A DNA stretch of 25,471 nt. Origin: Pilasporangium apinafurcum. Taxonomy: Eukaryota > Oomycota > Peronosporomycetes > Pythiales > Pythiaceae. Made by a program: the position numbers and the translations under genes. Location of the stretch: contig BCKE01000001.1 of NCBI GenBank assembly GCA_001600495.1, forward strand, positions 860,688 to 886,158, read 5' to 3'. The notes below the pieces were generated by a model, which saw only the letters and a list, made by a program, of their open reading frames with translations, did no database searches and was not told the DNA's origin. Within the stretch, counting starts at the first letter, position 1. Every line of letters begins with the position of its first letter. Shown one piece after another: positions 11,667 to 16,080 of this stretch.

Positions 11667-12310
11667 TCAAGACGTCCAGTTTCGTTGAGAAAAGAAAAAA
11701 AAAACTCGACCACTACGAAAAAACCTCAAAGCTGTATCCTTGAATAGGGTTAGGTTTAATAGGCAGGTCTCCCCTACCCACTGCAGTTCTGCAACATTAG
11801 AGCCAAGTGTCACAAAAACGCCACGGTCCTTAGCCCAAAATAAAAAATCCAGAATGCGAAATTGCGACAGAAGTGCGACAAATAGTGGTTGCCTAGCTTT
11901 CCACCTCAAAAGATCAATGATAGCAAAATACTCAGAGAGGAGTTCTTGTTTTTTGTTCGGGTCCGACTTAACTAGCAAATGGCCGCTAAGACTAGATAAC
12001 CGCAGAGCAGGGATTTCCGACACCTGGACTCGATAAATAAATTTCCATTTTTGAGAAACATGTTTCTAGTTTGATATTTGTCTTCCTTTCGCATCAATAC
12101 GATCACGCTACGCTTTCTGAACAATCGTTTTGATTTTCCACGTACCTGATCTCCTCACATCCATTCTTGAAAAGAAGAATGGCGCTGAAACGAGCTCATT
12201 GCGGAGAATTCGAAACAAGTTTCTGCTTTTATCGATAGGGATTGGTTCGCTCCAGAAAACACATCAAAGTGTATCCTACCGATAGGAGAAATGGGGGATA
12301 GAGGCTAAGG
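11667..12310 (-). mobile_element. IS607-like relic R1 (minus orientation)
   Basis: Assigned by shared ends. Reading on the minus strand it begins near 12310 with CCTCTATCCCCC, then the hairpin TCCTATCGGTAGGA (12274-12287) and TACACTTTGATG. The same order occurs in relics R2 and R3. A conserved leader follows (CTCCGCAATGAGC, CATTCTTCTTTTC). The right-end block CGAGTCCAGGTGTCGG..CTAGTCTTAGCG lies at 11990-12033 and is very similar to that of R2. Beyond it a 118-codon minus-strand frame (11667-12023) runs on; its first half (VSEIPALRLSSL, LVKSDPNKKQELL) is also recognisable in R2, interrupted there. Nothing in it has a recognised domain. No intact recombinase or nuclease gene remains. Confidence 0.5.
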
Positions 12311-13380: not shown

Positions 13381-13833
13381 ATATCAACAAAAGATTATGT
13401 GAGATAGCAAAGTACCTCAGGGAAAAGCTCCTGTTTTTTGTTTGGATTCGACTTGACTAGTAAAAGCTACTTAAGACTAGACAATCGCAGAGTAGGGATC
13501 TCCGACACCTGGGCTCGGAGAACAAGTCTTTGTTGTATACTCTTCCTCATACTCGATCATCCTTCCTCCAGCCCTTTTCATCTTGTACTTCAGTAGCGTC
13601 TTGAATTTGTAGTAAGACCATGTGAGCATTTTTCTTGACACCTTGCTTGAAATCCTTTTTTGCTTGAACGTCATCGCTTCGCATCCGTTCTCGAAAAGAA
13701 GAATGGCACTAAAAAGAGCTCATTGCGGAGAATTCGAAACAATTCTACTTTTGTCGAAAGGAATTGGTTCGCTTCAAAAAACGCGTCAAAGTGTATCCTA
13801 ACAATGGGAGAAGTGGCTTTATTATTCCCAGCT
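13381..13833 (-). pseudogene. IS607-like relic R2 with a TnpB C-terminal fragment
   Basis: On the minus strand the frame 13477-13674 encodes RISSKVSRKMLTWSYYKFK, then KMKRAGGRMIEYEEEYTTKT and CSPSPG. This is the typical TnpB stretch before and at the RuvC-II glutamate: the helix leading to E-E-Y-T-[TS]-K-T-C and the first zinc-finger cysteine. The second half of the zinc ribbon and the RuvC-III DRDxNAA motif are missing, and the frame ends in TAG after SAIV. Upstream on the same strand lie the left-end hairpin (TCCCATTGTTAGGA, 13796-13809) and TACACTTTGACG shared with R1 and R3. Downstream, 13475-13518 repeats the R1 right-end block. TnpB is an RNA-guided DNA nuclease; this copy cannot encode one. 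Confidence 0.68.
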
Positions 13834-13895
13834 AGTCTTTATTCCCTAGGTGTTCTCTACCACGTGTGGTAGAGAACACCTGGGGAATAAAGGCT
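13834..13895. repeat. Palindrome H1 with CTTTATTCCC ends
   Basis: Two 30-bp arms (13834-13863 and 13866-13895) separated by the two bases GT. The arms differ at only two positions. Each begins CTTTATTCCC when read from outside inward, and the centre reads CCACGTGTGG. It sits at the left-end side of relic R2 and 47 bp beyond the stop of the Fanzor ORF. A fully extruded hairpin would be very stable. Confidence 0.85.
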
Positions 13896-13941
13896 ACACT
13901 CATCCGTTTCCGAAATCATAGCAGTGAGGACTTTTATCACC

Positions 13942-14916
13942 TCAGTTTTTGATTTCGAGTACCAATTCATTCTCTTTCCTCGTGAACGCCTCGGGTCTCC
14001 TCTTTTTCTTCACTTGGTCGATGAAGAGTCTCAAAATGTTGATTGCGGCATTGATACCGCGATCCCACAATATGCGATGGCATTCACTCTTTTTGCAGTG
14101 CTGCACACCATAAAGACCGTCACTGTGAATTTTCTCGTCAAGGACGAACCCCTTCATCTTCTTGTGACAAGCACAACAAAGCTTGCTTGTCCTGAATTCG
14201 CCCACATCAACAACATGACACCTGGAACCAATTTTCTTCCGTAGGGTCGTTGCGGGAACAGCAATGTTGCCTTTAGCTGAGCTTGTGAAACTTGCGTTTC
14301 CATACGTGAGCATCTGGCCGAATAAGCTATGCTGAGTTTGGGTGCTCGCACGACCCAGCATTGAGACAGCACTCTTGATTATCTTGTCTTGGTGCTTTTC
14401 AAAATAGTCACTGTTGTGAAGGCGTATCTGCAGGCGTATCCACTTACACAACCGAGAGTAGAACGTCAATCGGTTGCTGACTTGGAAATTCTGCCTTGCG
14501 TGCTGAGCGATCATAACCAACATCTGAGTCATATAGGATTTCTTCTCTGTCGGTTCATAAACTGAAGGGTGTTGGGTCCTGTAAAGGTCTAGACTGGTCT
14601 CCAAGTCAGAATGAACCTCTCCGCTGCCGGCCAAGTTGGCTATTGCAGATGAGCACCGATTGAAGAAGTTATTATCCAATGGAGGAAGCTCTTCGCCAGC
14701 TTCCAATAATCGCAGAACATGGATGGATGCCAGCATAGATGCCTCACATGCTATTCTTGAACAAACTCGCACAGCCTCATCAATCTTTTCCGCCATTCTT
14801 TTGTATTTGCAAAAATTTCTCCAGCCAGTCTTCACAGTGGTGTATACGCTTTGCTTTTGTCGAACTTTCCGCTTTTTAGTGATCTCCTTTTCAATACCGT
14901 CGCTCGTTGATGTCAT
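13942..14916 (-). pseudogene. Fanzor1-type (eukaryotic TnpB) RNA-guided nuclease, internally deleted
   Basis: A single 324-codon frame. The N-terminal part (about 20-195) reads like the oomycete Fanzor helical/WED region (RVCSRIACEASMLASIHVLR, then PPLDNNFFNRC). The C-terminal part is diagnostic: E240 in VVDVGEFRTSKLCCACHKKM (RuvC-II context plus first zinc pair C247/C250), the second pair C274/C279, and D285 in WDRGINAAINILRL (RuvC-III). Between STQTQ (about 195) and LFGQMLTYGNASF (about 199) a large piece is apparently absent: the RuvC-I segment with its catalytic Asp. Known Fanzor1 proteins are much longer (about 500-700 residues). NLS-like stretches KKRKVRQK (14-21) and KKKRRP (303-308) fit nuclear action. 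The frame itself is intact. Without RuvC-I it should not cut DNA, though guide binding is not excluded. Confidence 0.82.
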
Positions 14917-15301
14917 TTTGTCACAATGTTCAAAAACAAGGACGCCTCGTAGTTGGTTTGATTTTTGATTATGCTGTTTCTCAAAGCTGCAGTTCTTTTT
15001 GTTTTGGCGAATGTTGAAGCGACACTCAATAGATGGGTGCTAGGACGTGAGGTGATAAATACTTCAATTCAATTCAATACGCTTCGCTATTGAGAAGCCG
15101 GAAACGATTCATTCAAGAGTTGATTTTTCTAACTCCATATATCTTAACCTTTTTTCCTCACCCAAGGTGTATAATTTCATTTTTCTGGAAACGCGATTGA
15201 TCGTCAACATGGTCTTTCAAGATGATTGCGCACGCAGCAAGAGCCACCAAGGAGTCTCTCCATCCAATGAATCCTAAAGTCTACTCTCAAGGCAATCTTA
15301 G
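14917..15301. other. Upstream region of the Fanzor ORF
   Basis: Non-coding sequence upstream of the Fanzor start on the minus strand. The Fanzor frame stays open for about 40 codons above its first ATG but has no other Met, so the ATG at 14914-14916 is the likely start. No end hairpin is seen until 15302. Confidence 0.4.
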
Positions 15302-15365
15302 TTTTAATCTTTATTCCCCACATCATTTGTACAACGTGTTGTACAAGTGGGGAATAAAGGTTAAA
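15302..15365. repeat. Palindrome H2 with CTTTATTCCCC ends
   Basis: Inverted repeat with left arm 15302-15335 and right arm 15338-15365. The left arm has a bulge of a few extra bases, and the spacer is GT, as in H1. Outer segments read (A)CTTTATTCCCCAC and GTGGGGAATAAAGG; the inner stem is TTGTACAAC/GTTGTACAA. Apart from the shared ends its stem differs from that of H1. A further CCTTTATTCCC in opposite orientation begins relic R3 at 15525, so GGGAATAAAGGTTAAA (15350-15365) and TTTAACCTTTATTCCC (15525-15540) form a 16-bp perfect inverted pair. Confidence 0.8.
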
Positions 15366-15668
15366 GGTGCGCGGCCGGTCTTTCGAGAGTCGTCCGAGTA
15401 TACAAAATTCTATAGAATTTACTTGGCCGGGGTGACTCTTGGGAGAGTCTTACTAAACCTGGACCAGGATTTTTCGAAATGTGTATAACTGCTGTTTTGT
15501 ATCAGCTAAAGAATAAATGCGGAATTTAACCTTTATTCCCTCATTCCTCCCACCGGTGGGATATACTTTGACGTATTTTTTTCTCCCTATCGATAGAAAC
15601 TTGTTTTCAATTCTCCGCAATGAGCGCCATTCTTCTTTTCAAGAAAGGATGCAAGTCGATGACAATAC

Positions 15669-15875
15669 ATGCCCGAGGAGATCGACATTGATTCCGGTCT
15701 TAAGGACAGCAAACCAGGACTGTCCAGACTGGTAGAAATGGCACGTAAAAAGCAGATCTCGAGGATTGTGGTTACCGTCCAAGACCGATTTGAGTACGGA
15801 CTTCTCGCACAAATGTGTAAAGAGCATAGCATCCAAACCGTGGTTCGCGCTGATCAACCGATGCAAGATAGATAA
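15669..15875 (+). pseudogene. Serine recombinase (IS607 TnpA-like) fragment
   Basis: About 68 codons matching the middle and end of the resolvase-like catalytic domain of IS607 transposases: the GL.DSKPGL block, the KKQISRIVVTVQDR strand-turn with the conserved Asp-Arg, and a weaker CKEHSIQTVV. The expected FGFEYL after DR(L) is rearranged to FEYGLL, which points to compensating indels. The upstream nucleophilic Ser and the DNA-binding N-terminal helix-turn-helix are absent. Confidence 0.75.
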
Positions 15876-16029
15876 ACCAAGTCCAAACAGCATCTTGAAA
15901 GTGAGGTTGTATCCAACAAAGGAACAGAAGCAACTTCTCAACAAGATGTTTGGTATCAGAAAGTCTTGGAGTGTCGTCACTGACAGAGATGTCAATGCTG
16001 CTAGAACACATCTTTTTCAAGAATGAACA
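15876..16029 (+). pseudogene. TnpB N-terminus fused to its C-terminal RuvC-III motif
   Basis: In one frame, SILKVRLYPTKEQKQLLNKM (conserved TnpB N-terminal wedge/helix start, YPT..Q) is followed within about ten residues by VTDRDVNAARTHLF, the conserved RuvC-III Asp motif that normally lies some 300 residues later. This is a clean internal deletion. The product would have no nuclease centre. Confidence 0.75.
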
Positions 16030-16080
16030 CCTACTCTCCTGGACTCATCGAGTCCAGATTTCAGAGATGCCTAGTCTGAC

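Follow-up and report, generated by a model that had tools for sequence, protein, structure and literature searches.

The open frame at positions 13942-14916 (minus strand) is, at a probability of about 0.87, a copy of a non-autonomous, internally deleted and decaying Fanzor1 transposon derivative. It lies within an element of 1527 bp, delimited by comparison of copies and placed between TA dinucleotides (13835-15361, minus strand). The window, i.e., the whole stretch of 25,471 nucleotides analyzed, corresponds to C1:860688-886158 in a genome of 36.5 Mb and 136 contigs. The element displayed the features of a deletion derivative, namely kept ends, a shared internal deletion and many dispersed copies.

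The short frame and its protein

The frame was open from start to stop over 324 codons, as originally predicted, and joined an N-terminal Fanzor1 half to a C-terminal RuvC-II/TNB part. A protein search with this frame returned three relatives, the best of which, P0001 (561 aa), showed 42% identity over 35% of the query and matched both sides of a central gap in the window protein. Full-length genomic copies aligned on both sides of the gap as well (67-80% identity over the matched pieces for L049, 70-76% for L050), in agreement with the predicted Fanzor N-terminal half, and Fanzor1 homology was therefore found on either side of the deletion. The sole Pfam match of the frame was the Cas12f1-like TNB (zinc-ribbon) model, over residues 233-294 (E 1.5e-5), with a score of 25.5 bits slightly below the curated cut-off of 26.3. 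Relative to the majority of short copies, the window copy was devoid of nine codons near the start.

The RuvC-II Glu (codon 240, in EFRTSK; 14197-14199, minus strand) was kept according to both the alignment and the copy comparison, and was unchanged in all 36 short copies that were readable there. The zinc-ribbon part within the TNB match, from Cys 247 to Cys 279 (14080-14178, minus strand), kept Cys 247, 250, 274 and 279. Both features had been foreseen from the window alone. The RuvC-III Asp had been foreseen too and turned out to be lost: the conserved Asp column of the alignment fell on residue 287 (14056-14058, minus strand), where the window copy reads WDRG. Asp was present at this position in 39 of the 40 short copies analyzed, and Gly solely in the window copy. 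Residue 239, an Asp ahead of the RuvC-II Glu elsewhere, was also Gly in the window copy.

The Fanzor1 motif, given as D-X(125,275)-[TS][TS]XX-C4 zinc finger-X(5,50)-RD (Bao and Jurka 2013, PMC3627910), was found in part, with TSK and the C4 finger kept, the leading Asp (RuvC-I) absent and RD reading RG. Judged on its sequence, the window frame is a Fanzor1 derivative and not a complete member. The catalytic residues of SpuFz1 are reported as D383, E541 and D606 (PMC11423790). The window protein sequence gave no match to solved structures; P0001, used in its place, aligned with chain 8gkh (E 0.0005), the Glu of its DEFRTSK falling on chain residue 936. E240 of the window copy would be equivalent to SpuFz1 E541 if the fusion partner in 8gkh adds 395 residues, an offset obtained by arithmetic (1032 minus about 637). 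The RuvC-I Asp of Fanzor1 fell in the segment missing from the window frame. Since RuvC-I is absent and the RuvC-III Asp is gone, the window protein, if made, should not cut DNA.

Internal deletion and its junction

About 300 codons, RuvC-I included, were missing from the window frame by comparison with full-length copies. Against 911-912 nt in the full-length copies L050 and L052, the short element keeps 12, so that about 900 nt net have been lost; because the two sides of the deleted segment are in one frame in L052 and L054, this loss was in frame. The N-side of the break in L054 reads ...GTCCGCGTACTCC and the C-side ...ATCGCGTATGGA; across the junction, short copies read ...CTCGCGTATGGA. 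A CGCGTA repeat flanked the break on either side and was exact in some of the full-length copies; nucleotide comparison placed the junction with this microhomology (CACGTA in the window copy) at residues 203-205 (14303-14308, minus strand). Alignment to full-length copies, the check proposed with the original prediction, thus defined the deletion; the two halves did meet within a few residues, at this position rather than at residues 195-199.

The protein alignment had raised the possibility of filler DNA at the junction; this explanation was dropped, CGCGTA being present on both sides at the nucleotide level. Nucleotide differences just before the junction CGCGTA read as substitutions. Near-fixed differences between short and full-length copies were concentrated at the break, with seven within 24 bp of the junction and two elsewhere in the region tested. 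A single event of microhomology-mediated repair would have produced the deletion.

In the window, no hit to the missing segment (307 aa from L050) was credible, the best reaching E 0.75, as expected from the predicted loss of the RuvC-I core, and the segment was absent at E 1e-5 from all 40 fetched short loci; the same query recovered the full-length copy L052 at E 0.0 as a control. An intron-like insertion holding the segment, or RuvC-I in another frame at this locus, had been named as cases that would overturn the deletion, and both were rejected on these searches.

Copies in the genome

A six-frame genome search with the window protein gave at least 126 matches (123 of 666 candidates scored), some of which crossed residue 205; in others, residues 1-206 and 202-324 were matched separately. 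With a 161-bp probe for the junction, at least 40 matches (40 scored of 333 candidates) were obtained at 90-100% identity, and all 40 covered the probe end to end or within 2 bases. The union of both lists, i.e., 58 junction-spanning rows of the protein search (read by eye) and the 40 probe matches, placed the same junction at 64 loci or more, these counts being lower bounds. At least 100 matches were listed with the RuvC half of a full-length copy as query, a few of them representing two pieces of one locus.

The 40 best-scoring of the 58 junction-spanning rows were fetched as short loci (L009-L048), and all of them aligned across the junction. Frames were intact in seven (L009, which is the window copy, L011, L012, L014, L015, L017 and L025), a share biased upward because the best-scoring rows had been fetched. 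Six full-length copies were fetched for comparison (L049-L054), and an uninterrupted end-to-end frame was present in none of them. L051 and L053 matched the short element only from element position 981 and displayed a different N-terminus.

The original prediction had offered, beside a decayed copy, a catalytically dead guide-binding protein exapted as in bacterial TldR. Such a protein would be in line with an open frame that retains the Fanzor N-terminal half and the zinc ribbon, but the frame belonged to a repeat with at least 64 copies rather than to a single conserved locus, 33 of the 40 copies read were broken, and the immediate neighbours of the window copy were other transposon relics. 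Exaptation of this kind is accordingly regarded as highly improbable, and the structure models and selection tests below bear on it further.

Structure models

The window protein model, built on a 10-sequence alignment, displayed a mean pLDDT of 46 and zero strands. The model of a full-length relative, P0008, built on another 10-sequence alignment, reached a mean pLDDT of 74.7 and a pTM of 0.71, contained strands and matched SpuFz1, GtFz1 and PpFz1 (E 4e-13 to 1e-7), this control being imperfectly matched in that its alignment has closer relatives than that of the window protein. Residues D377, E552 and D596 were invariant in the P0008 alignment and would, by motif, form the RuvC triad. P0008 strands 247-251, 309-316, 319-326, 372-377, 384-388 and 406-410 lay in the part absent from the short protein, their positions relative to the gap being taken from alignments A2 and A3 and not from superposition. 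In solved Fanzors, the RuvC/TNB surface and the RuvC-WED junction are described as the parts that hold the omega-RNA (PMC11423790). The combination that marks a TldR, an inactive RuvC with a retained binding fold, was not recovered for the window protein, strandless beside the P0008 control; given the low confidence of the window model and its more distant alignment, this reading leans also on the missing segment itself, which includes strands of the full-length model.

Ends and flanks of the element

Comparison of copies gave the element ends as RCCTTTATTCCCC, and the terminal sequence of the Fanzor1 element ends as TARCCTTTATTCCCC. Both ends were long palindromes that folded far better than shuffles. 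The right-end hairpin, composed of the terminal repeat and an inner palindrome, spanned 13833-13896 (minus strand; fold z-score -11.6), and the left-end hairpin with its flanking TTTA spanned 15303-15365 (minus strand; z-score -8.5 for the 65-nt piece 15303-15367).

Both ends were recognized in 27 of the 40 short copies, which formed the scored set for flanks. TA was found on both ends in 22 of these 27, and no match of 3-9 bp between left and right flanks was seen among them. The TA at the right end of the window copy (13833-13834, minus strand) is a putative target-site duplication; flanks taken from different copies matched equally often (22.2 of 27), and because TA is near-invariant among copies, duplication and target preference are inseparable at this dinucleotide. 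The short elements were probably moved in trans by a transposase encoded elsewhere, and a Tc1/mariner-type enzyme as mobilizer would fit the TA sites.

The base before TA at the left end was T in 25 of 25 cases, and the base after TA at the right end was A (14), G (8) or T (2) in 24. The resulting TTTA left flank (TA plus a conserved TT; 15362-15365 on the minus strand of the window) was present at 48 of 54 exact left ends genome-wide. It is a candidate TAM by analogy with SpuFz1, for which a CATA TAM and a CA conserved outside the left inverted repeat are reported (PMC10432273).

The short elements may also have acted through RNA, with guides usable in trans by full-length Fanzor. This idea, drawn by analogy, is compatible with a decaying deletion derivative and is considered possible, if rather doubtful. 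The right part of the element, where Fanzor guide RNA arises in the cases studied, was kept (86-91% identity between the window element and the six full-length copies over element positions about 1092-1568, C-terminal coding included), the frequency of TTTA at left ends points the same way, and ghost elements with guide RNAs usable by SpuFz1 have been published (PMC10432273). The right-end hairpins, however, were highly variable, with a diversity of 0.37 among copies in the last 48 columns and foldings of 30 right ends ranging from -2.9 to -34 kcal/mol, and a full-length copy with an uninterrupted frame to use such guides was lacking among the six read.

Transposases and neighbouring relics

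No transposase with the same ends was found when 59 DDE_3 genome matches were set against the first 100 of 160 terminal-motif places. At the one such place read, a Tc1/mariner-type transposase frame of 333 codons (L055:722-1720) stopped some 30 bp beyond the right end of a Fanzor1 element. As a candidate autonomous partner it gave no evidence of shared ends, since it sits outside that element. At C26:140329-147662, two exact terminal motifs faced each other 7.3 kb apart, with no Fanzor match between them among the matches listed; this region could hold a larger element.

Relics of IS607/Fanzor2 type were located at 15525-16080 (plus strand), 13480-13816 (minus strand) and about 11999-12307 (minus strand). 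The first two contained a resolvase piece (20 bits, cut-off 23.3), an OrfB helix-turn-helix and a TNB piece, and the third was recognized by DNA similarity. These relics look internally deleted themselves. The relic ends at 15525 and 12307 carried a terminal motif resembling the one found in the Fanzor1 element, and the relic end at 15525-15663 had at least 40 matches in the genome (40 scored of 339 candidates).

Selection and decay

The short copies look to be in neutral decay, their private (one-copy) changes displaying no detectable protein-level constraint. The 40 copies formed a star-like tree in which the tips were long and the inner branches short and, in many cases, poorly supported. 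Private changes were spread over codon positions 1, 2 and 3 at 0.32, 0.31 and 0.29 per site. They amounted to 217 nonsynonymous, 78 synonymous and 11 stop changes against an expected 279.3 : 102.1 : 15.5, the expectation being corrected for the mutation spectrum seen in the noncoding parts of the element itself. The dN/dS below 1 looked for among copies with the same junction did not appear in these changes, omega being 1.02 (bootstrap 0.83-1.33) for the 40 loci compared out of at least 64. The seven intact copies held 38 nonsynonymous and 14 synonymous private changes, a ratio like that of the whole set, and the window copy 11 and 2. Stops in the majority frame averaged 1.4 per short copy (56/40), and 11 of the 40 copies were stop-free in this frame where 9.9 were expected from a Poisson distribution of that mean. 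The window frame would thus be open by chance, as a copy that collected no stop or frameshift. Of the two readings first proposed, the decayed copy agrees with the neutral private changes; the dead guide-binding protein conflicts with this neutrality as it does with the copy number and the missing segment.

Some measures counted against neutrality. Judged by the noncoding parts, private changes in the coding part reached 0.77 of expectation. Per-site values were 0.31 for the frame, 0.32 for the 5' noncoding part and 0.69 for the 3' noncoding part, which includes the hairpin, and the noncoding excess sat in this 3' hairpin end. Variants found in at least three short copies gave an omega of 0.76 (0.62-0.98) and a nonsense ratio of 0.55, i.e., a mild constraint; the omega value would also favour an exapted protein. 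Pairwise NG86 omega among the 21 intact pairs had a median of 0.48 (range 0.28-0.74), a method that disregards the mutation spectrum. The singleton ratio of codon positions 1+2 to 3 was 0.78 in the seven intact copies and 1.09 in the 33 broken ones. In random six-copy subsets of short copies it was 0.90 (0.73-1.11) and in the deleted segment of the six full-length copies 0.72, a weak contrast between short and full-length copies.

The constraint on shared variants was attributed to a pool common to short and full-length copies, because 45-47% of the variants present in at least three short copies were found also in the six full-length copies (76/169 nonsynonymous, 46/98 synonymous) and because N/S in the N half was 1.83 in short pairs and in full-length pairs alike. 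Private variants were found in the full-length copies in 18 of 213 nonsynonymous and 5 of 76 synonymous cases. In the C half, N/S was 2.27 in short pairs and 1.70 in full-length pairs, with short subsets spreading over 1.66-3.4.

While the family was active, its protein might have served as a trans-acting repressor or dominant-negative, the in-frame deletion aiding the spread of elements whose remains are the present copies. The KP derivative of the Drosophila P element offers an analogy. The frame of the deletion and the mild constraint on shared variants would suit such a role, as would the near constancy of the RuvC-II Glu and RuvC-III Asp, which were somewhat more constant in short copies than drift would suggest. 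A deletion is nevertheless in frame by chance in one case out of three, the equal N/S of short and full-length copies in the N half makes a short protein unnecessary as the source of constraint, and the private changes were unconstrained. A former repressor is thus considered very unlikely, and decay of a non-autonomous derivative remains the preferred reading.

A variant pool shared between short and full-length copies

Along the frame and away from the junction, diversity was about as high among short copies as among full-length copies, and comparisons between the two groups gave about the same value. Close to the junction, net divergence between the groups reached 0.18 (within 24 bp) and 0.11 (within 16 bp); at more than 40 bp it was 0.00-0.015. 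This confinement of net divergence to the junction is a founder signature. Three short copies (L016, L039 and L040) carried the full-length codon GAT beside the junction instead of AAC.

Linkage decayed over very short distances. Among variants in at least eight copies, r2 was 0.53 for pairs up to 5 bp apart and had dropped to 0.05 for those separated by 16-40 bp. For transversions in at least eight copies it was 0.72 within 5 bp, 0.70 at 6-15 bp and 0.037 at 16-40 bp, values based on just 5, 2 and 17 pairs, and for transversions in at least three copies it was 0.29 at 16-40 bp and about 0.04-0.05 beyond. Recurrent mutation contributes to this mosaic, since minor variants in 6-10 copies were transition-rich (0.89), but was insufficient as its sole cause, the transversions in at least eight copies also losing linkage beyond 15 bp. 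The data suggest that short-tract exchange between dispersed copies would explain a pool in which linkage is gone within about 40 bp.

A more speculative reading, to which a low probability is given, sees the short and full-length Fanzor1 elements as a single interbreeding pool whose members are kept alike by RNA-guided cutting, with homologous sites cut in trans by full-length Fanzor and then repaired from other copies. Each short element would bring its own guide-RNA end along with the TTTA motif of the left flank, and repair would have restored short elements and exchanged short tracts among dispersed copies. Such a process would account both for the loss of linkage within about 40 bp and for the near-zero net divergence off the junction.

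Comparison with known systems

Since dozens of decaying copies share this junction and their private changes look neutral, a Fanzor frame that stays open after losing the nuclease core is by itself no evidence of a domesticated dead nuclease. The object is of an ordinary kind, unusually well resolved, and its mosaic variant pool is the part that deserves a closer look. With the short loci and RuvC-half matches counted above, the genome is well populated for asking whether Fanzor helps non-autonomous relatives to persist, and is equally suited to asking whether RNA-guided cutting drives sequence exchange among transposon copies.

TldRs are reportedly nuclease-dead TnpB repressors, in work by Wiegand et al. 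from 2024. Their nuclease is described as inactivated, with guide RNA and DNA binding apparently preserved (PMC13418256). The short protein resembles them as a member of the TnpB/Fanzor superfamily predicted to be without nuclease activity. TldRs, however, still bind guide RNA and DNA and are associated with non-transposon genes (PMC13418256), whereas the frame described here belongs to a multi-copy decaying transposon and is without half of the protein.

Among stramenopiles, two Fanzor1 families were reported in Albugo laibachii (Bao and Jurka, PMC3627910); literature searches for gene conversion among deletion derivatives and for Fanzor in combination with Albugo retrieved nothing closer. 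PUl-4 of Pythium ultimum (Bao and Jurka 2013, PMC3627910) likewise has Fanzor1 as its sole gene and terminal inverted repeats, as well as TA duplications, which are putative in the present element. The Mariner identity of elements of the PUl-4 type rests on ends identical to those of confirmed Mariner members, and, among the places compared, no transposase-bearing element with the same ends was found for the one analyzed here. The Chlamydomonas elements CRe-1, -2 and -3 (PMC3627910) share internally deleted copies and hairpins at both ends, a Helitron2 feature, but are of Helitron type, with variable-length duplications and frequent 5' truncation, where the present element displays TA flanks and one shared junction.

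The short family is comparable to the 'ghost' Fanzor elements of Spizellomyces punctatus, for which 134 ghost Spu-1 elements and 42 Fz loci, either full or partial, are reported (Saito et al. 2023, PMC10432273). Both are non-autonomous Fanzor1 relatives that keep the inverted-repeat ends, the right-end region and a left-flank motif. Guide RNA is demonstrated for ghost Spu-1 and would be putative in the short family. Ghost Spu-1 elements, as described in that source, are without an Fz open frame (about 550 nt); the short family, unlike them, derives from one defined internal deletion and keeps 333 codons in frame.
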